IMG/VR virus record: IMGVR_UViG_3300025767_000034
Coordinates: 1-47,282 of that record
Reading direction: 5' to 3' (one strand)
Length of the DNA: 47,282 bases
DNA from: a virus
Under the pieces are notes generated by a model that was not told the origin of the DNA, did no database searches, and worked only from the letters and a program-made list of their open reading frames with translations. A program made the position numbers and the translations under genes. Shown one piece after another: positions 5,790-19,261 of this stretch; position 1 is the stretch's first letter, and every line of letters starts with the position of its first letter.

Positions 5790-7088
5790 TTAAACTTTAA
5801 AAATATAAACTTTTCCGCTATTGTCGTTACCTAATTCATCTTCAGCAGGAACACCAACTGTGAGGAATTTATTAGATGCTGACATAGTTTCGCCAAATTT
5901 ATCTAGGTCAACTGTTCCGTATGCATTTGGATTTTGTATAGTATTCAATAGTGCCCCATTGCTTGGATTAAAAATGTATACTACACCGCTGCTTGTCCCT
6001 GCTGCGGTATCTTCTTCTAACGCTGCAACAGCACAGTATGTTTCTGTAATAGCAACTTCGGCACCAAAATAATCATTATTAACAGTGTTGTACGCATTAG
6101 GATTAGCTAGTGTAGTTGCTAATGCCCAAACACCGCCTTGTAATGTATAAATGTATGCATTGCCGCTATTAGTACCTTGTACATCTTCACCGATTGTGCC
6201 AACAATAATATAACTATCGCTAATATCAACACTATAACCGAACTGGTCAAAGTTATCAGTACCCGCAGCTGGACCGTTTGGATTAGGATTTAATATTGTT
6301 TGGACTGCTCCTGTAGCATTTGTAATGATATGAATTGCTCCACTATCGCCGCCGCCTGTGGGCCCAAATGTGTTTTCTCTCCACGAACCTACTACTGTAT
6401 ATGTATCGTTCATTGCAAGAGTTTGAACTCGTTCGCCTAACTGGTCGCCAGGATATTCGTCTTCAGCGTCTATATTAGGATTTTCAATAGAATGTAATAA
6501 GTTACCATTTGCAGTATTGAATATGTATATCCAACCAGTGTCATCGCCTAGTCCGGTTGCATCTTCTCTAGGTGCTGCTACTGCTGCATAGTTTTCAGAT
6601 ATAGCAACACTGCTGCCAAATCGATCTCCGTTAGTAGTAACCGCAGTAGTTGCAGGATTAGGATTATCTAAAGTAAATAACAATGATCCATCAGTAATAT
6701 CAAATATAAACGCTCTTCCTCTATCTACAATAGAAACACTTAAATCATCTTGTTGAGCTCCTGCAACTATATAACTTTGAGAACACGCAACTGCTGATCC
6801 AAATAAATCGCCGCCACTTTGAGGTGCAGTTAAACCTGGATTGTTAATAGTGTATAAAGGAGTTCCTGTATTTGTAAACACATATACCTTACCGTTTTCT
6901 GTTGATACTGCATCGCCTTCAAGACTGCCAACTACAATATATGCTCCGTTGGATGCAACACTTAAACCAAAACTATCTTGTTGCGCAGCAGCGTAGGCGT
7001 TTGGGTTATCTAACGTTGCAATTAATTTAAACGGAGTCTGCGGACTTGTAAAATATATGCTTGAACTGAGTGATCCTAATCTTGGCAT
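5790..7088 (-). CDS. FG-GAP repeat beta-propeller protein (seven repeats)
   Basis: A 432-residue protein made almost entirely of seven repeats of ~58 residues. Each begins near a T-L-x-N-P-N-x motif, has a D-x-F-G-x-x-V (FG) step, a V-x-V-G/A-x-x-x-E-D (GAP-like) strand, and ends G-x-V/A-Y-I-F. Examples of the FG step are DSFGLSV, DLFGSAV, DRFGSSV, DQFGYSV, DYFGAEV and DKFGETM; the fourth copy is altered to DQLGERV. Seven copies fit one closed seven-bladed propeller, as in integrin alpha-chain heads. The Asp/Glu-rich loops could bind calcium. The gene lies between the cupredoxin-bearing virion protein (7-nt gap) and the S8 protease (12-nt gap), so a role in tail-fibre adhesion is likely but inferred. 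Confidence 0.85.
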   Translation of the reverse strand: MPRLGSLSSSIYFTSPQTPFKLIATLDNPNAYAAAQQDSFGLSVASNGAYIVVGSLEGDAVSTENGKVYVFTNTGTPLYTINNPGLTAPQSGGDLFGSAVACSQSYIVAGAQQDDLSVSIVDRGRAFIFDITDGSLLFTLDNPNPATTAVTTNGDRFGSSVAISENYAAVAAPREDATGLGDDTGWIYIFNTANGNLLHSIENPNIDAEDEYPGDQLGERVQTLAMNDTYTVVGSWRENTFGPTGGGDSGAIHIITNATGAVQTILNPNPNGPAAGTDNFDQFGYSVDISDSYIIVGTIGEDVQGTNSGNAYIYTLQGGVWALATTLANPNAYNTVNNDYFGAEVAITETYCAVAALEEDTAAGTSSGVVYIFNPSNGALLNTIQNPNAYGTVDLDKFGETMSASNKFLTVGVPAEDELGNDNSGKVYIFKV

Positions 7089-7094
7089 TGACTG

Positions 7095-8567
7095 TTATCC
7101 ATAGTTTGTATAACCGCCTAATACTGTCCAAGATGCTCCTACTCGCAGTAATGTAAACGTTATTACATCAATGCTGTTTATATTACCAGCAGGCGCAATA
7201 GCTTCAATCCAATTAATGGTTTGCGCTACTCCGTCAATTTGTAATGCACTAGGTATATATGCAGTTGCGCCTTGATTTAATAACAATACTATGTTGATTG
7301 CTCTATTTGATGTAGTAGGAACATTTGTAATGTTAGCAGTGAAGTTAGCAGCAATACTAGAATGATTAAAGATTGCACTGTTTGCAAAATTATGATTAAC
7401 TACACCAGTTGCATTAGTGATAGTTGATAGTACTTCTGATTGCTTAAATATATTTTCTAAAGATATGCCATCCGGTGCTGTTAGTGTAATTGTTGACGCA
7501 CTATTTATTACTGCCGGACCAATACCGTTATTAATAAAACTAGGACTTGATACGCTAAGAAATTCAACAGCATCTGTAGTATTTAAACTTTGATCGTATG
7601 CTGCTCCGCCGCCGCCACCTGTACTGTTAATAGTAATAGTATTAGTAACTGGATTAATTGCAAGGGTAACGTTTGTGCCAGCAGCAAAATTTAATGTATC
7701 TGTTCTAGAGTCTGCATTTATACTGTTAATTAAATCGCTTGTAATTTTTACAGTGCTGAAAGTATTAATTGTAGGTATAGGCGATGATGGTTGAATCCAT
7801 TGACTTGAATCAGTATCTGTTACATATACATAGATTGATCCTGTAGCAGAGTTAAACCATATACTACCTTCTGTTGGTGTAACAGGCGGAGTATCAGAAA
7901 CATCAACACTTGCGCCACCGCCACTTGAACCTGTTGCACTTCCTGGATCAGCAACAGCAATTTCATTGCCCATATTAAGGTGTAATTGACACCAGTAATA
8001 AAGAGTGCTTGGAGTATTATTTGTTACTCTAATACTGACACGGCGTGTTGTAGCTGATCGAAATCCTGACCAGTATTGTGCTTGTGTAACTTCGGTGCCA
8101 TCTAAGTTGTAAACAACTCCTTCAAGATAACTTGTGCCGCCAGCAAGTGGACCGTTTAAATTGTCTGCACTAAAGTTTAATGGATGTTGATTTACTGTTG
8201 TACCGTTAGCATTTGGATAATATACATTAGTTAAGTCATCTTGTATAAATGTATAGGTATATCCGACAACAAAATTTAAAACAGGCTTATATGCTCCGTT
8301 AAGTATATACTTGTTACCTTCGCCTTGATTTTCAATTAATACTGTATATTCGACTGTTGCTGTTTTAGTTTCTTCAATACTAGATCTAAGAGTTGTCTTA
8401 GTTATTACTTCGAAACCGCCCTGCACTATTCCGTTATAAACACGAAGTGTACTTGCTTGTTTGTCGAAGAAAACTTCACCACTAGCACCAACGTTTCTAT
8501 CAAGAAAGTCGTCAGGTCTTGGTATTATTCTAATTCTATCTACTACTGGTGCTGAATTTGAAGCCAT
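7095..8567 (-). CDS. Virion protein with internal cupredoxin-like domain
   Basis: A 490-residue protein. The N terminus (RIRIIPRPDDFLDRNVGASG, then F-F-D-K-Q-A-S-T-L-R-V-Y-N-G) resembles attachment modules of marine T4-like fibres. About residues 75-210 form a cupredoxin-like domain with a conserved H-P (QHPLNF, near residue 127) and YYWCQLHLNM (C-x2-H-x2-M, near residue 192). A short 'GSIWFNSATGSIYVYV' fibre motif follows at about residue 235, then beta-rich sequence with 'TLNFAAGTNVTLAINP'-like repeats to the end. It begins a transcription unit behind a clear late promoter, with AAGGAA as ribosome site, immediately downstream of the non-structural cassette. Virion location is inferred from composition and promoter type. 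Confidence 0.8.
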   Translation of the reverse strand: MASNSAPVVDRIRIIPRPDDFLDRNVGASGEVFFDKQASTLRVYNGIVQGGFEVITKTTLRSSIEETKTATVEYTVLIENQGEGNKYILNGAYKPVLNFVVGYTYTFIQDDLTNVYYPNANGTTVNQHPLNFSADNLNGPLAGGTSYLEGVVYNLDGTEVTQAQYWSGFRSATTRRVSIRVTNNTPSTLYYWCQLHLNMGNEIAVADPGSATGSSGGGASVDVSDTPPVTPTEGSIWFNSATGSIYVYVTDTDSSQWIQPSSPIPTINTFSTVKITSDLINSINADSRTDTLNFAAGTNVTLAINPVTNTITINSTGGGGGAAYDQSLNTTDAVEFLSVSSPSFINNGIGPAVINSASTITLTAPDGISLENIFKQSEVLSTITNATGVVNHNFANSAIFNHSSIAANFTANITNVPTTSNRAINIVLLLNQGATAYIPSALQIDGVAQTINWIEAIAPAGNINSIDVITFTLLRVGASWTVLGGYTNYG

Positions 8568-8586: not shown

Positions 8587-8594
8587 TATTTATC
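8587..8594 (-). promoter_or_regulatory. T4-type late promoter (GATAAATA)
   Basis: GATAAATA on the minus strand lies 19 nt before the ATG of the 490-aa virion gene. It starts a new late unit just after the non-structural cassette ends at 8602. Confidence 0.75.
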
Positions 8595-8601
8595 GAAAAA
8601 A

Positions 8602-8850
8602 TCAGTAAATTCTCCTGTAGTAATGTGTCCATGTTTCCTCAAATGCTGCTAGTGCATTCATGTCATTAAAGTCAACATGCGTCTTATCATGACTTATTTT
8701 TGCTTTGAATGTGGCAAAATGCGGATGACGCTTTGACCACTGTAGCCAGTGCAGGTGAGCTAAGTTACCTACTTTATCAACTCTATTAGCATACGGCACG
8801 ATTTCTACTCTTGCAAAATTTCCTAGCTTGTTTTTATCTATAAGGTCCAT
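8602..8850 (-). CDS. Hypothetical small protein
   Basis: An ~82-residue basic, His- and Trp-containing protein with segments H-L-H-W-L-Q-W-S-K-R-H-P-H-F and T-W-T-H-Y-Y-R-R-I-Y (C terminus). I do not recognise it. Two ATG codons are possible, 8862 (86 aa) and 8850 (82 aa). I prefer 8850 because it shortens the overlap with the preceding J-domain gene to 17 nt, but this is uncertain. It is the last gene of the cassette and is followed at once by a late promoter for the virion gene. Confidence 0.6.
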   Translation of the reverse strand: MDLIDKNKLGNFARVEIVPYANRVDKVGNLAHLHWLQWSKRHPHFATFKAKISHDKTHVDFNDMNALAAFEETWTHYYRRIY

Positions 8851-9088
8851 ATTTACTTCCAAACATTTTTTTAAAAAATTCGTCTCTTGATTGATTTAGA
8901 TTTTTTAATTCTTTAAAGTTATTATTAACTCGTGTTATGTACTTATATGCTTGCACAACCTCATTAAATTTGTCACTATTACCTTCTCTATCTGGATGGT
9001 GTTTCATAGCTAATTGACGAAATTTTTGTTTAATTTCGTCATCACTAGAATTTATAGTTACACCTAAGAGATCATAATACTGTTGCAT
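8834..9088 (-). CDS. Single J-domain (DnaJ-like) protein
   Basis: An 84-residue protein whose first ~55 residues are a J domain: YYDLLGV start, helix II Q-K-F-R-Q-L-A-M-K-H, the diagnostic H31-P32-D33 loop, then helix III F-N-E-V-V-Q-A-Y. The short tail ends K-M-F-G-S-K-Y-G-P-Y-R. J domains stimulate ATP hydrolysis by Hsp70 (DnaK) and direct it to a client. There is no G/F region, zinc finger or substrate-binding domain, so the protein probably recruits host DnaK to a phage process. It may assist virion assembly or the neighbouring enzymes; which one cannot be told. Confidence 0.9.
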   Translation of the reverse strand: MQQYYDLLGVTINSSDDEIKQKFRQLAMKHHPDREGNSDKFNEVVQAYKYITRVNNNFKELKNLNQSRDEFFKKMFGSKYGPYR

Positions 9089-9096
9089 ACAATTAT

Positions 9097-9519
9097 TTAC
9101 TCATACATTGTACTTTTATACTCTTTATCAATTTCTGATATTCCTTCTTGAGTAGTTATCCACTCTATTACATTATCAATGTGAATGCATAATGGTTTCA
9201 TAGACGGCATTTCAAATATTCTTATATATTGATCTTCAAGGACTGTTTCTCCGTGAACAACTTCCGGAGTTAATGGGGTATTAGGCCAATGCACTTCTCC
9301 GCTCATAGGAGATGTACCTGTTGCAATTATTTGTTGTATAGCACCATCTTCATCCTTGTATTTTAAGACAACTTCTTTATACTTTACAACAGTATTAAAC
9401 CAATGTATATGTTTATGTCTATCTTTTTGTAGTTTTCTTGCAGTATATGCATCAGTAGGCTCTCTTAGTTTTTGAGTATAAATTAAATACTGTGCTGTGC
9501 TTGTTTCTGATAATGGCAT
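9097..9519 (-). CDS. Hypothetical protein (cassette member)
   Basis: A 140-residue protein, basic in its first half (R-K-L-Q-K-D-R-H-K-H-I-H-W-F) and ending in an acidic helix. I recognise no family. It begins 3 nt after the stop of the 260-aa gene and ends 8 nt before the J-domain gene, so it is translated as part of the same operon. A 'SPMSGEVHWPNTPLTPEVVHG' region near the middle is Pro-rich, which suggests a folded beta domain. Confidence 0.65.
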   Translation of the reverse strand: MPLSETSTAQYLIYTQKLREPTDAYTARKLQKDRHKHIHWFNTVVKYKEVVLKYKDEDGAIQQIIATGTSPMSGEVHWPNTPLTPEVVHGETVLEDQYIRIFEMPSMKPLCIHIDNVIEWITTQEGISEIDKEYKSTMYE

Positions 9520-9522
9520 CGC

Positions 9523-10293
9523 TTATTCCTTCCAAATGAGATTTTTTAATTTACTATAGTTAGTTACAAATTGACTATCTATTACATTTGCCCGCAGTCT
9601 TAGATTTTCGATATCCTTTTTTGTCGAACCTCTTACATCTACATCAACTGTTTCTTTTTTAATTAATATATACTGACAAAGTGGTGTTCCTGCTGGTATA
9701 AACACTTCATTATTTAGTTCATGCCAAAATAGCTGGACATTTAAAAAGTTTGGACCGTCATCTCCGTCTAATAAACCTATAGCTGCTGTAAACTCATGCC
9801 TATCTGGGTACGGAATAGGCATACTTAATAGATAGTATCCTTTAGGAATATATACCATCCACGGTGACTGTATTTTAATTACAGTTGATAACGAGTCTTT
9901 AGAATTGTTTGTATAAAACCCTGATAATTCTTCTGGATGATGTGATACATAATCCCACTTCCAGTTGTGATCAACTTCTGCACCTTTTTGGCTTGTTGCT
10001 GATACCCATTGAAATGATTTGCCGTCGCCATTAGTTTTAATTGACATATCTTGCCAAGAACGGTGTACGTATCCTGTTGCATTTATTCCAATGATTCCAG
10101 GACACCGTGCAATATGAGATATCTTATGAGTAAGAATTTCGTTATCTTTTCGTGCCTGTTTGTAATTTTGTAATGCATCTTTGTACCATGCATACGACTG
10201 CTTCTTTGCTTCAATGATAGGCATCGACTGTGTTAATTCAGGTATTAGCGATACAAATTCTAATTTAGGTTTTTTCTTAAAAAAGTTAATCAT
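9523..10293 (-). CDS. Conserved phage protein of unknown function, tandem paralogue B (DUF6065-like)
   Basis: About 256 residues from ATG 10293, which overlaps the previous gene by 8 nt and has GGAAAAA upstream; an ATG at 10305 is the alternative. It is a paralogue of the adjacent upstream gene. Both share a C-P-G motif followed by G-I/L-F-like text, a GY-V/L-x-x-x-W-x-D-x-x-I-K-T segment, a 'SPWMVYIPKGYYLL' strand (TPWNVIAPKGVKFL in the sister), an E-F-x-A-x-x-G-x-L-D turn, and a late 'I/L-x-A-G-x-x-L-x-x-x-I' strand. The pattern recalls the DUF6065 family found in phage and bacterial secondary-metabolism loci; I cannot confirm this. Its position behind a halogenase and an oxygenase hints at a substrate-binding or enzymatic role in one pathway. 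Confidence 0.65.
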   Translation of the reverse strand: MINFFKKKPKLEFVSLIPELTQSMPIIEAKKQSYAWYKDALQNYKQARKDNEILTHKISHIARCPGIIGINATGYVHRSWQDMSIKTNGDGKSFQWVSATSQKGAEVDHNWKWDYVSHHPEELSGFYTNNSKDSLSTVIKIQSPWMVYIPKGYYLLSMPIPYPDRHEFTAAIGLLDGDDGPNFLNVQLFWHELNNEVFIPAGTPLCQYILIKKETVDVDVRGSTKKDIENLRLRANVIDSQFVTNYSKLKNLIWKE

Positions 10294-11026
10294 TAGTTTT
10301 TCCAAAATGTTTATTATAAAAGTCTTTAATAATATTTCTATTAATTTTAAAAGTATGAATATTATAATATAATCTTTTTTCTAACCACTCTCTATCATGA
10401 TCAGTTGCATCCCTAACAACAAAGTCGTATTGGTGTTCTGTTAGAGGTATAAGATGTGCTAGTGCATGCCCTGCTTTAAGATGTATTTCACCTTGGGGAA
10501 CATTCCAATATCCTTGCACATTAATTTCAGTGCTTATTGCTGGATCTAAAATTCCAGTACATGCTTCAAATTCATAAGTGTCAGTGTATGCAACTGCTGT
10601 CATTAAAAACTTAACACCCTTAGGAGCAATAACGTTCCAAGGGGTATTAAATTTCATTACAGGTGCAATACTTTGAGGACGCTTAGGCAAAAACTTAGTA
10701 ATACTATATGGATGTGTACCTAACGGATCACCTTCTTTCATAGTTGCAAGTACTTCGCTAGGATGTACATATGCAAATCCTTCTTGACTTCGATCTGTCT
10801 TAATTAGTGTGTCGTGCCATAGCGGAACAAGATATCCGTATTTAAATAGATCAAAGATACCAGGACATTGGTACAAGTGGCTAGGGCGTGTTAAGTTTTT
10901 AGTTCTAACATAATCATCTCTGCAAGTTTGCATCCATCTAGGAGAATGTTCTCTAGCTAATCTAATAGGATGTGCATCCGCAACTCCTAGAATTGTAGAA
11001 AAGAATTCTATTTTATCTTGTTTCAT
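10286..11026 (-). CDS. Conserved phage protein of unknown function, tandem paralogue A (DUF6065-like)
   Basis: A 246-residue sister of the next gene with the same ordered motifs: Y-Q-C-P-G-I-F-D-L-F, GYLVPLWHDTLIKT, TPWNVIAPKGVKFL, YEFEACTGILD, and G-E-I-H-L-K-A-G-H-A-L-A-H-L-I-P-L. Its start overlaps the stop of the oxygenase gene by 1 nt (TAATG), a classic coupling arrangement. The C-terminal ~50 residues are helical and basic. Low identity outside the motifs suggests an old duplication with divergence, possibly a heterodimer or two substrates. No catalytic residues can be assigned with confidence. Confidence 0.65.
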   Translation of the reverse strand: MKQDKIEFFSTILGVADAHPIRLAREHSPRWMQTCRDDYVRTKNLTRPSHLYQCPGIFDLFKYGYLVPLWHDTLIKTDRSQEGFAYVHPSEVLATMKEGDPLGTHPYSITKFLPKRPQSIAPVMKFNTPWNVIAPKGVKFLMTAVAYTDTYEFEACTGILDPAISTEINVQGYWNVPQGEIHLKAGHALAHLIPLTEHQYDFVVRDATDHDREWLEKRLYYNIHTFKINRNIIKDFYNKHFGKTND

Positions 11027-11601
11027 TATGATACCTGTATGCTAAATGCAATATTAATTCGTTGTCTATTTGACTCGTTGCGCAACACTTCATGAGGAAC
11101 CCAAGCTGGCCACAATATTAATTCACCGTCAGTAGGATGTACAACACACTCTCTTACAAACGGAGATCTTGGATTACAATCACTGAGTAAGTTAGCAGGA
11201 TTGATAAACTTTAATCCTCCGGTATTTTTTCCTTGTAGGTAATACACTGCAACAAAACTATCTGCAACATGATTGTGCAATACGTTTGTACTTCCTGGTT
11301 CATTTACATTTGTCCAGTAGTCTATGCCAATTTGGTGATCTTTAATATGTTCTTTAAATGTATAGTCGTGTGCAAAGTAGTGTTCGCATGCATGTGCTGC
11401 GATATCTTGCACTCCGTTTAATAACCAATCAATATTTTCATATTTTGTATTACTACGCCAGCAGTTATCATTGCTCATGTGCATAGTACCGATATCTTGT
11501 TCTTTTGCTGTTAAGATCTGTTTTAATAAATCACTTTGTTGTTCTAGTGTTCCAAATTTTTCAACAAAGAAATCACTTTTAAATTGTGCTATTCGTTCCA
11601 T
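11026..11601 (-). CDS. 2-oxoglutarate/Fe(II)-dependent oxygenase
   Basis: About 191 residues from ATG 11601 (an ATG at 11613 would give 195). Numbering from the longer start, it has a HNHVAD iron-binding region (H113, H115, D118), the YYLQG strand that follows it in this family, a distal L-I-L-W-P-A-W-V-P-H174, and the 2-oxoglutarate-binding Arg in R-Q-R-I-N-I-A-F (R183/R185). This matches the short prolyl-hydroxylase-like oxygenases common in marine T4-type phages. They hydroxylate (or sometimes halogenate or desaturate) a small molecule or side chain. It overlaps the end of the halogenase gene by 13-25 nt, so the two enzymes probably act in one pathway. Substrate unknown. Confidence 0.85.
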   Translation of the reverse strand: MERIAQFKSDFFVEKFGTLEQQSDLLKQILTAKEQDIGTMHMSNDNCWRSNTKYENIDWLLNGVQDIAAHACEHYFAHDYTFKEHIKDHQIGIDYWTNVNEPGSTNVLHNHVADSFVAVYYLQGKNTGGLKFINPANLLSDCNPRSPFVRECVVHPTDGELILWPAWVPHEVLRNESNRQRINIAFSIQVS

Positions 11602-13094
11602 GTTTCGTACCACTCTTTTAAAAAGTTATAATGATTTGGAAAAATCTTTTTTGCTTCAGCTATCCTAGCACTTTGAGTATTAATAAAATATTCTAAATAT
11701 TCTTTTTCTTGTTTAGTTAATGACGGTTTATAATCTTTATATGCGCCACCTGCGTGTATCATAGTCCACCATTGTACACTACTAAACATGCTTTGCCGAC
11801 TAAAGAATATGAAATCTTTAGGCTCCGGATAATATTGACTTATCATATATTGTGCATCACCGGGCAATGTTGATAAATCTTTTGCTCTAACGTCTTTCCA
11901 GTAAGGTGTGTCGTCTTTGGTACTAAAATAATAGTGCGCATATACAAACGTTAATATTTCTATAGACATTTCGTAAAAGCCACGATTAAGCATTTCTTTA
12001 CATTGGTCTGTCCATTGTCCATTTGACAGATTTATCAAATCACATACTGAGGTTACTGTTGCTGTAGTAAATGTAATGCCAGTTGCTTCTAACGGCTCAA
12101 CAAACCCTGCACTTAGTCCAACGCCTACTACGTTCTTAATTGCAATTTGTTCGTGTGCGCCGCATTTCATTTTTAAATGTTTTGCAGGTGCATCCCATTC
12201 GTTTAAAGTTTCTCGTAATTCTTTTTCTGCTTCTTCGGCTGTAATGTGTTTACTAGAATAAACATATCCGTTGCCTACTCGGTGATATGTTGGAATAGTC
12301 CAACGCCACCCTGCATTCATTGCTGTTGCTTTGGTGTAAGGATGACACTCAGTTTCTGGATCAGTGTATTGTGTAGGAATAGCAACTGCACTATCATTCA
12401 TTAGCCAGTTATCGTAGCTAATAAACGTTGCGCCCATTGTTTTTTCTAAAAGTATACTTTCGAAGCCGCTGCAATCAATATATAAATCTGCACTATATTC
12501 TTTTTTATCAGCATCAATAAGTTTACTAATGCCGCGACTATCTTTTGCAACTTGTGTTACTTTAGTATCTACATATGTAATTTTATTTAAGATTAAACTT
12601 TTAATAGTATCAATAATGTCATACGCACTAAAGTGGACAGCGCCGTAACCATCTGGTCCTGTTTGAAAGTTACTGTCTAGGTCAGGAGTTAGTTTTGGAC
12701 TTAAATTAGCTTTAGCTAATTGATAAGCAGGATGCCATTTAGCAAACTCACTATAAGGTTTATCCATAAAGTGTTTATTTGCATATAGATACGGAGATGC
12801 AACTGTATTGTTGATACTATCGTTATCAACAAAATACGGTTCGTCATTCCATCCAGTTAACTCAACACCGTACTTGAATGCTGCGTTACTAGGCTTCATC
12901 CAATGCTTTGCTTCAATTCCGCACTTATATAAAAATGCAGCAGTTAGAGGCTGTGTACCTTCGCCGACGCCAATAGGACCTTTACTAGCATCTTCAATTA
13001 AAGTTACTTTAATATCAGTCTGTAGGTTATTAACTAGATATGCAGCAGTTAACCATCCGCTTGTGCCGCCACCAAATATTATAATATTTCTCAT
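11589..13094 (-). CDS. Flavin-dependent tryptophan-halogenase-family protein
   Basis: A 501-residue protein, the normal length for this family. It has the FAD dinucleotide fold G8-G-G-T-S-G-W near the N terminus, the active-site Lys candidate K74 (AAFKYGVELTGW), an I-D-C-S-G-F motif (206-211) for FAD contact, the family signature W263-R-W-T-I-P268, and G-F-V-E-P-L-E-A-T-G-I (330-340) holding the catalytic Glu region. These enzymes use FADH2, O2 and chloride or bromide to make hypohalous acid, which a Lys directs to an indole or phenol substrate. A flavin reductase partner is needed and is not in the window. The start overlaps the upstream stop as ATGA. All signature residues are present, so activity is plausible, but many phage and marine homologues are uncharacterised and substrate is unknown. 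Confidence 0.92.
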   Translation of the reverse strand: MRNIIIFGGGTSGWLTAAYLVNNLQTDIKVTLIEDASKGPIGVGEGTQPLTAAFLYKCGIEAKHWMKPSNAAFKYGVELTGWNDEPYFVDNDSINNTVASPYLYANKHFMDKPYSEFAKWHPAYQLAKANLSPKLTPDLDSNFQTGPDGYGAVHFSAYDIIDTIKSLILNKITYVDTKVTQVAKDSRGISKLIDADKKEYSADLYIDCSGFESILLEKTMGATFISYDNWLMNDSAVAIPTQYTDPETECHPYTKATAMNAGWRWTIPTYHRVGNGYVYSSKHITAEEAEKELRETLNEWDAPAKHLKMKCGAHEQIAIKNVVGVGLSAGFVEPLEATGITFTTATVTSVCDLINLSNGQWTDQCKEMLNRGFYEMSIEILTFVYAHYYFSTKDDTPYWKDVRAKDLSTLPGDAQYMISQYYPEPKDFIFFSRQSMFSSVQWWTMIHAGGAYKDYKPSLTKQEKEYLEYFINTQSARIAEAKKIFPNHYNFLKEWYETWNE

Positions 13095-14800
13095 ATATTA
13101 ACTATTATCTCTTCTTCTTTTTTAGGTTTATTAATTACAACAACGTATAGACCGTTCCACCAACTATTTTTGTCCTCAACGTCACACAAAAATAGTTTTT
13201 CATATCCTACAACTGCGCCGATGCTGTTAATACCCTTTCTTGCACCTTCTACAACTCCGTCCCAATTGGCATCATCGAAAATCAAAATTGCTTCATCAGC
13301 AAACGCCGACGAATAGTATTCTACAGCTTTTGCAGTACTAAACGAGTCATGGGGACCGTCATAAAACCACATTTGTATTTTACCAGCATAGTCTTTAAGA
13401 TTAACTCTAAATAAATCTTTGTCGATTACATCGATAGTATTATTGCCTTTGAACGTTTTTGCATTTGCAATAAATGTTTCTTTAGCGTTTGCAGGAAGTT
13501 TATCTCTACCTAGTTGCTGTGGCTGTATATCATTTTCCCAATTGTCAATTGCTACAGCATGCAATGTATTATCTTTTATTGCTGCACAGAATGTTGCGCC
13601 TTGGGCTGAGCCAACTTCCATATAACTATTAACACCGCTCGCAATGTTGTTTAGCAATGTTTGTACTCTAGGACTTGTAAGCCCAGGAATTTTAACACTA
13701 AGAGTAGGTATACCTGATCGTATAATACTATCCGAAGTATGCTTTACTAAATCAGTGTGATCAATTTTAGATTTAACTTTGTAAATGTCGTCACAAAAAT
13801 GACATTCCCAGCAATCAAACTTACAGTTTTTAATCTTCTTGCGCCACGCTAGAATAGGTTTTTCTTTGAGATTATTGTCTTCTAGATAATTTGTAAAATT
13901 ATCAAATAATATTTCTTCACCGTCGGCCCAGCGCTTGACAATGTCCATAGTTTCATACAGTCGACTTATTGCTTCGCGTCCGTGCATCTTAAATACATTG
14001 ATACCTAAGTCATCTAAGAATTCTTGCCAATCTTCGCGCCATGGAGGAATATTTGCAGTTTTTAAGTGAGTACTTGGGTCTTCAACATCCCACTTAGGAC
14101 AACTTACACGACTAATAGGATTATAAAAATATTGTGGATCAGTTCCGCTTCTAGTATTATTGTATTCGAAGTGCTCGACCATCATCGGACAATTGCCAGC
14201 ACATCCTTCATTTGCTAGCAAACTATAGTGTATATCTTTGTTTAAGTTTTCTTTAATCCAGTCTTTTGCTTCTTTTAAACGCAATAGTGTGTCTCTATCA
14301 CGCATCAAATCTCGGTCTAGGTTAATGTAATCAAACCCTGCTTTTGCTAGATGCACGATCTCAGCAGCGACCCTAACATCACGTAAGATAGTATTTTTTA
14401 CATATAGTTCAGGAAAGACTCTTTTAATTTGGCCTGTTGCCATCCAGTGCGTATGCGGAATAGTAGCAATGCGTATACCTTTATCGTATAACGGCTTAAA
14501 GTTTTTTATGAAGATATCAAGATTTTTTTGGCTAGGCGGAATCTGTATGTTATTAAATGTAGCACTTACTGGAACACCAGTATGCTCTTGTATAAACAAT
14601 GCTTGTTGAATAGCAGTGTCGTAATCTTCACTCTGTGCAAACACATCGCCCATTGCATCTTGCATAAATGGTGCAATACGGCATGTAAAATATACATCTT
14701 TGATATAGTCTTTGTATTTGTTAACAAAATTAATAAATTCAATATATTGTTCTCTATTTAATTTAGGGTTAAGCGGTATACTAAAGATTTTTGTGGTCAT
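13091..14800 (-). CDS. Fusion of U32-like TIM-barrel domain, Cys cluster and SAM methyltransferase
   Basis: A 569-residue two-domain protein. Residues 1-300 look like the TIM-barrel of peptidase U32-type proteins: C40-R-I-A-P, a PVSATFNN strand (77-84), I-N-L-D-R-D-L (159-165), and N-E-G-C200-A-G-N-C204-P followed by C234-P. A second cluster, C326-x3-C330-x2-C333-x2-C336, ends the domain. U32 relatives such as UbiU/UbiV and TrhP hold an Fe-S cluster and act in hydroxylation rather than proteolysis. Residues ~385-560 are a class I methyltransferase of the Methyltransf_24 type: E395-V-G-S-A-Q-G (SAM motif I), A-I-D419, F-Y-D481-G-P-H-D, and I-F-D-D-A-N-W. It is the first gene of the cassette, starting with a TGGAG ribosome site just past a terminator hairpin. 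The fusion is unusual, and its substrate is unknown. Confidence 0.8.
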   Translation of the reverse strand: MTTKIFSIPLNPKLNREQYIEFINFVNKYKDYIKDVYFTCRIAPFMQDAMGDVFAQSEDYDTAIQQALFIQEHTGVPVSATFNNIQIPPSQKNLDIFIKNFKPLYDKGIRIATIPHTHWMATGQIKRVFPELYVKNTILRDVRVAAEIVHLAKAGFDYINLDRDLMRDRDTLLRLKEAKDWIKENLNKDIHYSLLANEGCAGNCPMMVEHFEYNNTRSGTDPQYFYNPISRVSCPKWDVEDPSTHLKTANIPPWREDWQEFLDDLGINVFKMHGREAISRLYETMDIVKRWADGEEILFDNFTNYLEDNNLKEKPILAWRKKIKNCKFDCWECHFCDDIYKVKSKIDHTDLVKHTSDSIIRSGIPTLSVKIPGLTSPRVQTLLNNIASGVNSYMEVGSAQGATFCAAIKDNTLHAVAIDNWENDIQPQQLGRDKLPANAKETFIANAKTFKGNNTIDVIDKDLFRVNLKDYAGKIQMWFYDGPHDSFSTAKAVEYYSSAFADEAILIFDDANWDGVVEGARKGINSIGAVVGYEKLFLCDVEDKNSWWNGLYVVVINKPKKEEEIIVNI

Positions 14801-14812
14801 GACTACTCCAAT

Positions 14813-14845
14813 AAAAAAGGCACTACTATTATATATAGTAGCACC
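14813..14845 (-). terminator. Rho-independent terminator after the 184-aa gene
   Basis: On the minus strand an 11-bp stem (arms 14845-14835 and 14829-14819, with two G-U pairs) encloses a 5-nt AT loop and is followed by six T residues (14818-14813). It would end transcripts from the 16260 unit before the cassette. Confidence 0.8.
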
Positions 14846-14863
14846 TTTCTTTAGGTTTGTAAA
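14835..14863 (-). promoter_or_regulatory. Possible sigma70-like promoter for the enzyme cassette
   Basis: Minus-strand TTTACA (14863-14858) is separated by 17 nt from TACTAT (14840-14835): five of six and four of six matches to bacterial -35 and -10 boxes. It overlaps the terminator hairpin and points at the first cassette gene. AT-rich DNA yields such matches by chance. Confidence 0.3.
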
Positions 14864-14870
14864 GCGGTTT

Positions 14871-15425
14871 TTACGGAATAAATTTGCCTTCTAGCTCTTC
14901 TGAATACATTCTTGTTGCAAATAACTTACGCTTTTCTTTGTTAGCAGTATATGCACAATCCCATTCAAAATATGTTGCCATAAACATTTGAGTATCTGTA
15001 AGTTTTTTCAGTGTCGGAACGTTTGCTCTAATATAAGTTAGGCCGGTTTCTTCTGTTAAATGTGCTTCTGCATAGTTTAGCATCAATGCTTTTAACAGTG
15101 CTACAGTATTCAACTCATCTGCCGAAGTTAACTTATAAATGATCTTTTCGTAATCATTGTCGCCAAAACTAGTTGGTGATATAATATCTGCTGTATCTTT
15201 GACGTTACGCATTATCGGTACTTCACCATTTAAGGCATTAGTAAAGATGTGTGCATATGCAACGTCACGAGTTACTTGAGTAGCTTTAAGCCAATCAATA
15301 TTTACACTGCCTTCATCTTCTGGTGCAATATAACCTATAATGTGATGCCAAGAGGTTGAAATTGTTTTAATTCTTTTATCTGCTCTTGGATCGTCACTTG
15401 CGATAGCTTCAAATATTATATACAT
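14871..15425 (-). CDS. Hypothetical protein
   Basis: A 184-residue protein with predicted helices and strands (start MYIIFEAIASDDPRADKR; later W-H-H-I-I-G-Y-I-A-P-E-D-E-G). I do not recognise it. Its start overlaps the end of the 283-aa gene by 17 nt, and it is followed by a terminator, so it is the last gene of a two-gene late unit. It has no signal peptide, no membrane segment and none of the beta-repeat make-up of the fibre proteins. Confidence 0.75.
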   Translation of the reverse strand: MYIIFEAIASDDPRADKRIKTISTSWHHIIGYIAPEDEGSVNIDWLKATQVTRDVAYAHIFTNALNGEVPIMRNVKDTADIISPTSFGDNDYEKIIYKLTSADELNTVALLKALMLNYAEAHLTEETGLTYIRANVPTLKKLTDTQMFMATYFEWDCAYTANKEKRKLFATRMYSEELEGKFIP

Positions 15426-16260
15426 CGTTTAGGTCCTCGTCGATAGAATCACTACTATTTGTAGGTGATGATTCTAGTTTGTTCATTTCGCTAACAGGTG
15501 CTAGCAAATCTTTATTATCTACATTAGCGCCTAGCTTTAGATTTTCTTCTGATGCTGCTTGCAATTGTAGAGTGTACTGTTGAATCTGTGTACTAAAGTT
15601 CATGGTAAGTGCTAGCGTTTCTGCTTGCTGCTCTGGACTCATACTTAAAATAGCATCCATATTACCTGTACCAATACGACCGTAGAACAACATGTCAGTA
15701 GCAGCTTGTTTTGCAAGTCTGTTAGTCCAGTATTCGGCTTCGTATAGATCTTCTTCTTCAGTATTTAGAATATCCATATACGTTCTGCCCGAACCGTCTG
15801 GAATAATAGCTTCTTCTGATTCTTGAAACTCTTGCATCAAGTCTAACAAATGCTGGCGCTCAAGATACCAGTCTTGAAGTCTACGCTTGCTCATAACTAG
15901 GTTACGTTCAGCATTTTTTGCTTCTACTTCTGCAAGTCTGCGGTCTAAATCGTCGTGTGCTTGATCAGCCATGCGACGGAATCTTTCAATTTCAATTTCA
16001 AATTTAGAAATTTCGTATTCCATGTTATCAATAGATTCTTCTTTAGATTTGATTTCTAATAGCCACTGGCGAAACTTTGAAAAAGGTGTGATCTGCGCTT
16101 GACCAACAAAGTATCTTAGTTTGTATTTTGGGTTTGTCCATTCTTTGTTCAATGCAAACTCAATCATATCTTTTTCTTGATCGCTAATCATAGAGACGTC
16201 AGATCTAACGACACTTTTGTATCTATGATCTGTATATTGTAACCGTCTATCTGTTTTCAT
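15409..16260 (-). CDS. Hypothetical coiled-coil protein
   Basis: A 283-residue, strongly charged protein. Residues ~85-170 form a long predicted coiled coil (M-E-Y-E-I-S-K-F-E-I-E-I-E-R-F-R-R-M, then E-V-E-A-K-N-A-E-R-N). An N-terminal block (residues ~25-70) has K-Y-K-L-R-Y-F-V-G-Q-A-Q-I-T-P-F, and the C terminus is Ser/Asp-rich and probably disordered (SSPTNSSDSIDEDLNDVYNI). No family recognised. It has a late-promoter-like AATAAATA upstream and a GGAG ribosome site, so it is likely made late; a fibre-assembly or virion helper role would fit but is a guess. Confidence 0.75.
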   Translation of the reverse strand: MKTDRRLQYTDHRYKSVVRSDVSMISDQEKDMIEFALNKEWTNPKYKLRYFVGQAQITPFSKFRQWLLEIKSKEESIDNMEYEISKFEIEIERFRRMADQAHDDLDRRLAEVEAKNAERNLVMSKRRLQDWYLERQHLLDLMQEFQESEEAIIPDGSGRTYMDILNTEEEDLYEAEYWTNRLAKQAATDMLFYGRIGTGNMDAILSMSPEQQAETLALTMNFSTQIQQYTLQLQAASEENLKLGANVDNKDLLAPVSEMNKLESSPTNSSDSIDEDLNDVYNI

Positions 16261-16290: not shown

Positions 16291-16298
16291 TATTTATT
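16291..16298 (-). promoter_or_regulatory. Late-promoter-like element (AATAAATA)
   Basis: AATAAATA on the minus strand, 30 nt before the ATG of the 283-aa gene, differs from T4 TATAAATA at the first position only. It lies just past the stop of the propeller-like fibre gene. Confidence 0.55.
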
Positions 16299-16301
16299 GC
16301 T

Positions 16302-17327
16302 TTAGTCTCTCCAGCTCATCGTTGCTGAACTTTGACCGTTTACACCTTTTGCATTTAGACTTCCGCTACCTGTTGCACTGCTGCGTGTTGCATATACAAA
16401 TTTAGCACTCGATACAACGTGCGATCCTTGATACCATCCAATAGCATAGCCCCAATCTTGTCCAACAACCATGTTTTCTTCACCGCCGTAATAGCTTTTT
16501 CCACCAATAACATCTTGTGTTTGATCGTTGTAGAAGTTGGTCTCTCTCCAGTTTGTACTAGGATTACCTTCGCGGCCTGCAACCATGTTAGCATGTTTAA
16601 ACATAATAGCGTGTTGATGCTTGTCACCTTGTGGATTTGTTGCGCTTCTAGCAACTGATGTAGTTGATGCAAATTTAAATGCTGAATTATTGCTTATAAA
16701 AATGCCATAATTTTCATGTTGAAGTCCCCAAGAACCACCATCAGCTTGTGTACCTTGCTGTGTTACGAACGTACCAGTATTCATATCAAATCTATAAATT
16801 GCGCCGCTTCCGCCTTGTGACACCCAAGCAGTTTCTAGTCCTTGCTGAATTACTGCATTGTTGTTGTAAGCCCATTGTCCTGTTCTAGTATATCCAGTAG
16901 AAACACTATTTTCTGTTCTATGATTGTACGCTCTAATAGTATTTGAAGGCACACAGTGACCGTTTGAGCCACCGCCAAATGACCAACATAAATCCCTGTT
17001 ATGACAACTGTCTTTATAGTTGTGAGCACCTTCTTGTCTACCAGCTAAGTCAATTGTAGTATCTGTTGCAAATGTAACTCTGTTTGTATTGTTCCAAACA
17101 ACTGAGGATGCATATCCTCCATGTACATAACCAGTAGTAATAATTTGTCTTGTTAAGAACGGTTGTACCATAGACGACCAAAAGCCGCCACCACTTTGTG
17201 CTTGATAGGTTTCAATTCTACCTACAGATCCATTAAATCTAATATCTCCGTTTGATGCACCAGTAGTTGCGCCTGGCAACGTAAGATGACCAGTGTCATT
17301 AATTCGTGTGTTTTTAAGTGTTGCCAT
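16302..17327 (-). CDS. Fibre/baseplate-type protein, paralogue lacking the glycine-rich domain
   Basis: A 341-residue protein. The N terminus MATLKNTRINDTGHLTLPG is a short attachment module shared with the next two fibre genes upstream, followed by G-D-I-R-F-N-G-S-V-G-R-I-E-T-Y. Residues ~55-341 form a domain of repeated blades (TTGYVHGGYASSVVWNNTNR, later N-x-x-F-x-x-A/T-T) and end G-S-L-N-A-K-G-V-N-G-Q-S-S-A-T-M-S-W-R-D. The same domain forms the C-terminal half of the 644-aa neighbour, which ends SSSGSCGWRDN. The start overlaps the neighbour's stop by 1 nt (TAATG). A beta-propeller-like receptor domain is likely from the repeats but unproven. Confidence 0.75.
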   Translation of the reverse strand: MATLKNTRINDTGHLTLPGATTGASNGDIRFNGSVGRIETYQAQSGGGFWSSMVQPFLTRQIITTGYVHGGYASSVVWNNTNRVTFATDTTIDLAGRQEGAHNYKDSCHNRDLCWSFGGGSNGHCVPSNTIRAYNHRTENSVSTGYTRTGQWAYNNNAVIQQGLETAWVSQGGSGAIYRFDMNTGTFVTQQGTQADGGSWGLQHENYGIFISNNSAFKFASTTSVARSATNPQGDKHQHAIMFKHANMVAGREGNPSTNWRETNFYNDQTQDVIGGKSYYGGEENMVVGQDWGYAIGWYQGSHVVSSAKFVYATRSSATGSGSLNAKGVNGQSSATMSWRD

Positions 17328-19261
17328 TAGTTATCTCTCCATCCGCATGATCCGGAACTTGATCCGCCTTTGCCCTTAGGTTGCATACTACCACCTCCAA
17401 CTGGTCCAGTTTCGGTATAAAAGTTCCAACGGAAAGAGTTGTTGTTTTGTGCGCCATTATAATGACCTAAGCAATATGCATGATCCTGTCCGCTTCCGTA
17501 ATTTTCTTCGCCCATATTTCCTTCTGGCTTAGCATAAGTGCCTGCTGTTTGACGGGTAATAAAGTTTGTTCTGCGGAAGTTATAGCCGCCGTTATAAGAA
17601 CCTTCGTTACCTGCCCAGCAATAGTTTAGCTTAGAGCAAATTGATTTCTGTTGCGGGTGCGCAGCTGGTTGTGTCCCGCTCCACGATGTATATGTTTCAG
17701 TAAAGAAGTTCCATAGTCTTGAATCGTTTGACCAGTAAAATAGACCTTCGTTTTCCCAACTCATTCCCCACATGTCTGTTGTAGAACCTGCTGGTAATCC
17801 TTGACCTGTAGTCAATACCTCAGTACTAAAATTCATTTTAGCTAAGTTATTGCCGCCACTTGCCCAAGCAGTATATCCTTCGTGGAATACGCCGCCGTCA
17901 CGCATTCTGTTGCCGTCCATTGTTCTACCAAATGCACCTTGATACTGCGACTCTGTACGCATGTTGTAGCCAATAATATAATTAGAGTCTACTACGTGCC
18001 CGTTTCCTGCACCGAAGATAAAGTGTACGTGTTTCGAACATGCACCCCATTGATAGTTAAATGCTCTTTCTAGTGAGTTGTCACCTAAGTTAATTGTAGT
18101 ATCAACAGCGTGTGTACATCTGTTAACGTTATTCCAGGCAGACGAGTTTTGATATCCTCCGCACATGTAAGTAAATGCAATAATATACCTTTCTTTGAAT
18201 GGTAAAGCCATACTCAACCATTCACCGCTATTGCTTAGGTATTCAGCACTTCCAGTATTCGAATTAATTCTAAGTGCGCCCGATGCTGATTCATTCAATG
18301 CTGATGTTGTGTTGTATTTAACTACAACTATACCAGAACCGCCATTACCGCCTTGGTTACCTGCATTGTAGTGGGCACCACCGCCTCCACCGCCACCGGT
18401 GTTTGCACCAGCATTTCCGCCAGGTGTATTAGCCCAAGTGCTAGTGCCGCCGCCGCCACCGCCGTTGCCGTTGTTGTATCCTCTGCCGCCGTAAGTAGTT
18501 CCTACAGCGCCGCCTCCGCCACCGCCGTTGCCGCCGTCTCCGCCGCGGCCTTGATATCCGGCAGCGCCGCCTCCGCCGCCCCAAAATAAGTTTGCACCAG
18601 TTATGTCATTTTCTACACCACGGCCGCCATTGCCACCTTGTGTTCCAGATTCACCCGGTGTGCCAGCTCCGCCACCACCTCCTGGATACCATGTTCCTAC
18701 AGGGCTTGACCAAGCTCCGTCGTGACCTTGATCTGGATATATTGAACGACCTCTGTTGCCGCCACCATAGCCACTACCTGTTACATCCCAGTTGCCGCCG
18801 CGGCCGCCACTTGCTCCGCCGCCACTTGCTCCGTCACCTGCCGGAGCGCCCGAACTGTCATGACGCGAAGCGCCACCACCTCCACCGTAAGCAGTAATAC
18901 TTCCAAATACAGAGCTACCGCCGTTAGATCCTCTAACTTGTCCGTTACCTGCTGGTGCACCTGCACCTCCACCGCCTACTGTAACACTTACAGATCCGCC
19001 AGGAGTTACTGGATATACTGGAGAATAGATTACGCCACCGGCTCCGCCGCCGCCGCCCATATCTGATCCGCCTCCACCGCCTCCACCGACGGCTAGTACT
19101 TCTACAGTGTCTACGTTAGCAGGAACAGTCCAGCTCGTTGTACCAACACTAGTAAAGTATACAAGTGTGCCAGCAGCAGTGCCTATGCGCTGTGCTGTTG
19201 TACCTACTGGTAATGCAAGATAACCTGTATCGTTAATGTTAGTGCTTTTTAAAATTGCCAT
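17327..19261 (-). CDS. Fibre protein with glycine-rich domain and propeller-like C terminus
   Basis: A 644-residue protein. Residues 1-25 are the shared MAILKSTNINDTGYLALPVG module. A strand region W-T-V-P-A-N-V-D-T-V-E-V-L-A-V-G (~44-59) leads into a ~260-residue glycine-rich domain with many GGGGG runs and GGNGG/GGDGG turns, probably polyglycine-II-like or the Gly_rich phage-adhesin type. After a 'SGALRINSNTGSAEYLSNSG' linker (~331-351) comes the ~290-residue domain shared with the 341-aa neighbour (FTYMCGGYQNSSAWNNVNR). The glycine region makes this stretch locally GC-rich. In T4-like phages such glycine-rich adhesins tip the long tail fibres, so receptor binding is the likely job. Confidence 0.8.
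   Translation of the reverse strand: MAILKSTNINDTGYLALPVGTTAQRIGTAAGTLVYFTSVGTTSWTVPANVDTVEVLAVGGGGGGGSDMGGGGGAGGVIYSPVYPVTPGGSVSVTVGGGGAGAPAGNGQVRGSNGGSSVFGSITAYGGGGGASRHDSSGAPAGDGASGGGASGGRGGNWDVTGSGYGGGNRGRSIYPDQGHDGAWSSPVGTWYPGGGGGAGTPGESGTQGGNGGRGVENDITGANLFWGGGGGAAGYQGRGGDGGNGGGGGGAVGTTYGGRGYNNGNGGGGGGTSTWANTPGGNAGANTGGGGGGGAHYNAGNQGGNGGSGIVVVKYNTTSALNESASGALRINSNTGSAEYLSNSGEWLSMALPFKERYIIAFTYMCGGYQNSSAWNNVNRCTHAVDTTINLGDNSLERAFNYQWGACSKHVHFIFGAGNGHVVDSNYIIGYNMRTESQYQGAFGRTMDGNRMRDGGVFHEGYTAWASGGNNLAKMNFSTEVLTTGQGLPAGSTTDMWGMSWENEGLFYWSNDSRLWNFFTETYTSWSGTQPAAHPQQKSICSKLNYCWAGNEGSYNGGYNFRRTNFITRQTAGTYAKPEGNMGEENYGSGQDHAYCLGHYNGAQNNNSFRWNFYTETGPVGGGSMQPKGKGGSSSGSCGWRDN

Follow-up and report, generated by a model that had tools for sequence, protein, structure and literature searches.

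A conserved cassette of halogenase, oxygenase and methyltransferase genes beside the tail-fibre genes of T4-like marine phages, with a possible role in modifying virion proteins

Phage halogenases have been known since the early cyanophage genomes and are usually called metabolic genes; in publications, those of cyanophages have been given metabolic or antibiotic-related roles, which were termed speculative (PMC2984593; see also PMC9964418). Here we describe a virus sequence in which a halogenase gene belongs to a cassette of eight tightly packed genes. The sequence, IMG/VR virus record IMGVR_UViG_3300025767_000034, was analyzed as a window of 47,282 bases, and the cassette occupies positions 8602-14800 of its minus strand, between fibre-like genes and the gene for a tail/baseplate protein. 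Viral halogenases and phage 2-oxoglutarate (2OG) oxygenases are individually known already. In contrast, no description was found in the open-access papers searched of a conserved, fibre-linked cassette that combines a halogenase of a separate clade, a barrel/methyltransferase fusion and proteins with a dUTPase fold.

Among described systems, VirX1 of cyanophage Syn10 (PDB 6QGM) shares its Pfam family and catalytic motifs with the window halogenase. Its gene also lies near tail-fibre-region genes and is followed by a homologue of phrog_7084, a family with two paralogues in the cassette, and, as in syn9, by a run of 2OG-oxygenase genes. However, the two halogenases are 32% identical over 429 residues, and the window enzyme belongs to a separate, fully supported clade; moreover, the VirX1 locus carries tandem halogenases, and syn9, a near-identical relative of Syn10, has no gene of phrog_1458, the family of the first cassette gene. 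The cyanophage prnA and 2OG-oxygenase genes reported as auxiliary metabolic genes (T4-GC 212; PMC3037559, PMC2984593) likewise place both enzyme types in T4-like marine phages, but published accounts treat them as metabolic genes of sporadic occurrence, host-like or non-cyanobacterial, and not as a conserved fibre-linked cassette; several of them lie in metabolic or replication regions.

Outside of phages, QhpG is a flavoprotein that dihydroxylates protein-borne tryptophan and has a partner enzyme acting on the same protein substrate (PMC7876137), and ChlH and other peptide tryptophan halogenases act on tryptophan in peptides and some proteins (PMC12518702). QhpG is a flavoenzyme related to the window halogenase, although the similarity is weak (1.2e-5, with 24 bits against a cut-off of 240 for the QhpG NCBIfam model) and the protein serves bacterial cofactor maturation. 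ChlH is a flavin halogenase as well, but one encoded in a peptide natural-product gene cluster without phage context. By analogy, we regard both as precedents for flavoenzymes of this broad type that use tryptophan in proteins and peptides.

An earlier sequence-only reading of this DNA had proposed a packed block of eight genes that includes a tryptophan-halogenase homologue, a 2OG-Fe(II) oxygenase and a J-domain protein, all of which were borne out. Successive open reading frames (ORFs) meet at junctions of -4, -25, -1, -20, +3, +8 and -29 nucleotides with the listed starts, and internal ATGs would cut the overlaps of 25, 20 and 29 nucleotides to 13, 8 and 17. The first gene (13091-14800; phrog_1458, 2.5e-172) encodes a two-domain enzyme with an N-terminal TIM barrel and a C-terminal S-adenosylmethionine (SAM)-dependent methyltransferase (Methyltransf_24, 1.1e-7). 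It is followed by genes for a flavin-dependent halogenase of family PF04820 (11589-13094; Trp_halogenase, 9.6e-90) and a 2OG-Fe(II) oxygenase of family PF13759 (11026-11613; 2OG-FeII_Oxy_5, 1.9e-15; phrog_81). The oxygenase likely starts at 11601, an internal ATG that matches the start in the close relative L002. Next come phrog_7084 paralogue a (10286-11026; 2.9e-35), modelled with a dUTPase/dCTP-deaminase-like fold, and paralogue b (9523-10305; 6.1e-45; 29% identical to paralogue a), whose start is likely 10293. The remaining three genes encode a conserved 140-amino-acid protein without a Pfam or PHROG match (9097-9519), a short J-domain protein (8834-9088; PF00226, 5.1e-15) and a small 86-amino-acid protein that is kept in close relatives (8602-8862, likely starting at 8850).

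The cassette is real rather than a chance cluster, because its arrangement is conserved across many divergent contigs. Alignments of three families, namely the first gene, the halogenase and phrog_7084, were used to scan IMG/VR and yielded 140 loci, many of them overlapping; clustering of the first gene at 95% identity left 69 loci. Since the searches were seeded from these families, the proportions given here describe loci that hold the first gene rather than all phages. Among the 59 loci with at least 4 kb of downstream sequence, in which genes within 6.5 kb were counted, the first gene is followed by a 2OG oxygenase in 51, by phrog_7084 paralogue a in 39, by the halogenase in 30 and by the 140-amino-acid gene in 20. 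Every one of the 30 halogenase loci has the oxygenase and 25 have paralogue a. Thus, the gene-neighbourhood check that had been proposed for this locus found the families conserved together, and both Pfam and this co-occurrence uphold the earlier idea of a functional cassette that unites halogenase, oxygenase and methyltransferase domains. Upstream of the first gene, a phrog_1409 gene is found in 50 and a fibre-like gene in 41 of the 54 loci with at least 4.2 kb of sequence on that side.

Gene order within the cassette is nearly identical among close relatives. The complete block, through to the 86-amino-acid protein and the tail gene, is present in the closest ones (L002, L001, L014, L016, L108, L099 and L020), and L098 and L008 have the block without the J-domain gene. 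The window has the order paralogue a, paralogue b, 140-amino-acid gene (9097-11026); in relatives, the 140-amino-acid gene lies between the paralogues. The oxygenase/phrog_7084 junction is -4 nucleotides in 11 of 19 cases. Pairwise distances among the first gene, halogenase, oxygenase and paralogue a correlate with r values mostly of 0.81-0.91 (first gene/halogenase 0.91, halogenase/oxygenase 0.87, halogenase/paralogue a 0.91), and the value for halogenase and fibre is 0.83. These correlations reflect joint inheritance rather than interaction, because common descent also contributes.

The window halogenase scores 302 bits against a PF04820 cut-off of 21, and carries the flavin motif GxGxxG as GGGTSG, the motif WxWxIP as WRWTIP, and the catalytic residues K74 and E336 (K79 and E346 in PrnA). 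Among halogenases of the relatives, the catalytic lysine is retained in 33/33 and the glutamate in 31/33. The protein is likely to be catalytically active, because it retains the counterparts of PrnA K79 and E346 together with the flavin motif and WxWxIP, features that are also nearly always present in relatives. Residues 86-151 fail to align with the tryptophan 5-halogenase 8fov. In the tree, the enzyme falls in a clade of 14 rows from uncultivated phages with 100/100 support, and VirX1 lies outside it; membership in the VirX1 group was thus rejected. Some contigs hold one halogenase from each side of the tree (e.g., L027 and L037). We also considered the fibre-side position as a mark of one halogenase clade, but label changes on the tree were not fewer than in shuffles, and therefore position alone defines no clade.

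Isolated phages were compared at the protein level. All 123 matches to the first gene are in cyanophages, and the 66 matches to the halogenase include Campylobacter and Pelagibacter phages. The halogenase genes of syn9, Syn10, S-RIM44, S-CREM1 and P-TIM40 have tail-fibre, structural or collagen-like genes nearby and a phrog_7084 homologue behind them, and 2OG oxygenases follow wherever these are annotated or detected. Of the Syn10 halogenases, the second is VirX1 itself, aligning with 6qgm over residues 1-530 (1271 bits), and halogenases on the VirX1 side of the tree sit between tail-fibre or tail-fibre-assembly genes and phrog_7084 plus many 2OG oxygenases. In P-RSM6, S-WAM1, S-SZBM1, S-SRM01 and P-SSM2, the halogenase also adjoins tail-fibre or tail-fibre-assembly genes. 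Two halogenase clades therefore share a fibre-side position, phrog_7084 and 2OG oxygenases, which is the best argument, drawn from gene neighbourhoods, that the partners work together.

One alternative is that these are unrelated cargo genes, piled up in a plastic region beside the tail-fibre genes and having no common substrate. Cyanophage genomes are indeed variable between tail-fibre and neck genes, and cassette composition differs between lineages. Moreover, the halogenase and phrog_1458 never share a genome in seven isolates (S-RIM44, syn9, HTVC008M, S-CREM1, P-TIM40, S-CAM4 and P-HM2), whereas the two lie side by side in uncultivated relatives of the window. However, the conserved order, the coupled junctions exemplified by the recurrent -4 nucleotide overlap and the correlated evolution are hard to reconcile with such an accumulation, as is the same partner set accompanying two halogenase clades. 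We consider this explanation quite improbable.

Our preferred explanation, to which we give slightly less than an even chance, is that the cassette, expressed late and translationally coupled, serves a T4-like marine phage as a tailoring island that modifies a fibre or baseplate protein of the virion. The enzymes would work on one or more proteins of the virion while it is being assembled. Leading candidates are the tail-fibre or baseplate proteins encoded alongside, as their genes constantly accompany the cassette. Halogenation (or hydroxylation) of an aromatic side chain would fall to the flavin halogenase and hydroxylation of other residues to the 2OG oxygenase or oxygenases; the cysteine-rich barrel/methyltransferase would make a further change on the substrate, while the J-domain protein and the dUTPase-fold pair might hold or present it. 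Transcription would begin at the late promoter at 16291 and read through a leaky terminator into the cassette, keeping the enzymes below structural proteins in amount. Reduced flavin would be supplied by the host, because the cassette includes no reductase. The fuller proposal, that marine T4-like phages possess a pathway for halogenating, hydroxylating and methylating their own tail-fibre or baseplate proteins, and that this pathway arose repeatedly by recruiting halogenases of different clades, is put forward only tentatively, and we would expect it to fail about twice as often as not.

If true, this proposal would describe a novel form of virion maturation, could have consequences for phage attachment to hosts, and would indicate new enzymes able to use proteins as substrates. 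The conserved association of two halogenase clades with tail-fibre genes already provides a testable claim about marks on virion proteins. No publication on virion-protein hydroxylation was found in the literature searched.

Several observations weigh against virion-protein modification. First, the halogenase lies away from tail-fibre genes in S-B64, Syn1, S-PM2, S-MbCM6, S-H38 and CP21, and in HTVC008M it adjoins terminase genes. Second, VirX1 accepts many small aromatic compounds as substrates in vitro (PMC8407142). Third, the predicted dUTPase-like fold of the phrog_7084 proteins hints at nucleotides. Fourth, the C-terminal WRD tail of the fibre was considered as a halogenase-specific target and rejected, as the shared tryptophan is present with or without a halogenase.

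The first two of these observations are in keeping with an auxiliary metabolic pathway that makes or alters a small molecule inside infected cells, such as an indole, some other aromatic or a signal, and for which the late region would be no more than a tolerated insertion site. This is the published reading of cyanophage halogenases (PMC2984593, PMC9964418, PMC10452541), and it accords with the wide small-molecule range of VirX1 and with the location of several phage halogenases in metabolic or replication gene regions. Nevertheless, the fibre-side position recurs in two halogenase clades, and the fibre link is constant even though the number of oxygenases ranges from one to many. In addition, searches with Pfam, PHROG and NCBIfam revealed no recognizable gene in the cassette for making a precursor, for a transporter or for a carrier protein. 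Thus, we regard a metabolic pathway as unlikely for this locus, and, given the persistent tail-fibre link, a virion protein is a more plausible substrate than a host metabolite.

The phrog_7084 proteins bear on a further alternative. The model of paralogue a is of high quality (predicted local distance difference test score, pLDDT, 94), and all 50 Foldseek matches listed are dUTPases or dCTP deaminases, with a best E value of 8e-4. The two genes had been called paralogous unknowns; the paralogy stands, both being members of phrog_7084, and the label of unknown gives way to a predicted dUTPase/dCTP-deaminase-like fold for both. By eye, a GxLD...NxQ stretch and an AGTP stretch resemble dUTPase motifs 3 and 4, and the others of the five catalytic motifs were not seen. 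Therefore, the resemblance to these enzymes lies in the fold and two motif-like stretches, but the sequence match is weak and lacks the full motif set: the comparison with PF00692 gave no significant match (2 of 49 members, best E value 0.06). DUF6065 was also considered as the identity of phrog_7084 and gave no match. Distant homologues occur in Sphingomonadales genomes (L152-L161), where no halogenase was found beside them in the neighbourhoods fetched.

The oxygenase matches PF13759 with 57.5 bits against a cut-off of 27, and its catalytic residues are intact, with H113, H115, H174 and the 2OG-binding arginine R185 invariant among 26 sequences. Its relatives of known fold are 3bvc and 2rg4, and the HxH pattern is common to 3bvc. 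The match to TIGR02466 falls below the curated cut-off (61.5 versus 62.5 bits). The 2OG oxygenases as a group include enzymes that act on nucleic acids and lipids. This, together with the phrog_7084 fold, could mean that the cassette modifies a glycan, lipid or nucleic acid, such as the phage DNA or a host surface polysaccharide recognized by the fibres, in which case the dUTPase-fold proteins would handle a nucleotide or something linked to one. However, no homologue of a glycosyltransferase, nucleotide kinase or thymidylate synthase was detected in the cassette with Pfam, PHROG or NCBIfam, and the cassette is located in a late operon rather than among replication genes. This possibility is accordingly judged improbable.

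Under the preferred explanation of virion-protein tailoring, the first gene would contribute a further change to the substrate. Its AlphaFold2 model (pLDDT 88.5) consists of a barrel and a methyltransferase, and Foldseek ranks MTHFR first and also lists O-methyltransferases and the U32 protein Mk0906, the latter at a TM score of 0.62 by target. Methyltransf_24 is matched with 33 bits against a cut-off of 26, and by 40 of 45 members at E values up to 0.1. With its Methyltransf_24 match and O-methyltransferase folds, the protein belongs to the SAM-dependent class I methyltransferases. Seven cysteines are invariant in 45 sequences (C200-x3-C204-x29-C234 and C326-x3-C330-x2-C333-x2-C336), and their conservation suggests a metal or Fe-S site.

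The sequence-only reading had described this gene as a U32-like/methyltransferase fusion, possibly capable of oxygen-independent hydroxylation of the UbiU/UbiV type. The methyltransferase half of this description holds, but the U32 half does not. The predicted TIM barrel with its invariant cysteines recalls UbiU, UbiV, TrhP and RlhA, but the fold is all that could fit U32, and MTHFR ranks ahead of Mk0906 among the structural matches. There is no Pfam match to PF01136 in the window protein or in any of the 45 members, and the hhalign probability is 1.4% against UbiU, UbiV, TrhP and RlhA, the U32 reference sequences having been taken from E. coli, with none found in Sphingomonadales. The cysteine spacing also differs from the U32 pattern CX6CX15CX3/4C (PMC6747719). 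Because U32 membership fails, hydroxylation of the UbiU/UbiV type is unsupported.

Signals for transcription agree with those anticipated earlier, namely a terminator before the cassette, no late promoter inside it, and a late promoter that restarts virion genes directly after it. A terminator-like hairpin with a T run is located directly before the cassette (14813-14851, minus strand; -20.4 kcal/mol, z = -6.1); a consensus terminator scan missed this hairpin and direct folding revealed it. The close relatives L001 and L002 have a hairpin of different sequence at the equivalent place, and a terminator-like hairpin precedes the first gene in 14/30 halogenase loci compared to 3/39 other loci. 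The window has nine copies of the T4-type late promoter core ATAAATA, all on the minus strand; five lie 17-31 nucleotides and three lie 88-118 nucleotides upstream of listed gene starts, and one lies within a gene. The nearest site before the cassette (16291-16297) is upstream of the phrog_1409 gene. The next (8587-8593) is 20 nucleotides upstream of the virion gene that follows the cassette, and 16 of 17 distinct relatives likewise have the motif before their orthologue of that gene. There is no ATAAATA between 16291 and 8593. Thus, the region has the pattern of a T4-type late operon, with late promoter motifs before virion genes and none inside the cassette. A sigma-70 promoter scan of the window was uninformative (60 found versus 63.5 expected).

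A terminator before the cassette and the lack of a late promoter inside it together suggest low-level expression by read-through. Since the window offers the cassette no dedicated late promoter, its genes may also be transcribed only as late read-through. In certain relatives (L001, L014, L098, L008, L016, L023-L026, L028, L032 and L033), the hairpin loop contains TAAGTA, mostly as ATAAGTA, which is one base off the late promoter core. ATAAGTA is absent from the window's own hairpin, and is enriched upstream of the first cassette gene (14/83 versus 10/400 for other genes). Because this motif is in the loop and enriched at that place, those relatives may possess a terminator with a built-in promoter.

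The J-domain protein carries its HPD within HHPDR and has a conserved C-terminal motif, FFxxMFGSKxGP (alignment of 9). Its homologue in L002 (10550-10804) has lost the HPD and kept a C-terminal FFGSKFGPW. Because the motif is kept there while the HPD is lost, it may carry a cassette-specific role.

The late genes of the window are T4-like. The best matches of its major head protein are to large T4-like phages such as Vibrio phage 2.275.O and Salmonella phage Munch (66-69% identity), and no DNA-level match was found among 50,697 phage records. On the upstream side of the cassette, also on the minus strand, are genes for a glycine-rich tail-fibre-like protein (17327-19261; PF21722, 1.9e-18; phrog_1417 and phrog_863), a tail-fibre-like protein (16302-17327; phrog_1417), the near-constant phrog_1409 neighbour (15409-16260; 1.6e-39) and a 184-amino-acid protein (14871-15425) that precedes the cassette in the gene order of relatives too.

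Virion genes resume after the cassette with the tail/baseplate protein (7095-8567, minus strand; phrog_708, 1.4e-18), which has no Pfam match. It contains a cupredoxin-like ligand set (H128, C193, H196 and M199, in YYWCQLHLNM), whose last position is Met or Gln in relatives. A giant ORF at 28635-34589 has a similar set in YYYCRYHAGM. These residues could form a copper site in a tail protein; no publication on cupredoxin domains in tail fibres was found in the literature searched. The adjacent tail-region gene at 5790-7088 encodes an integrin-like propeller, an FG-GAP repeat protein in which six stretches match PF14312 (1.1e-44). At the end of the window, a NUDIX-hydrolase-like gene (502-996; phrog_1198, 1.4e-23) lies on the opposite strand.

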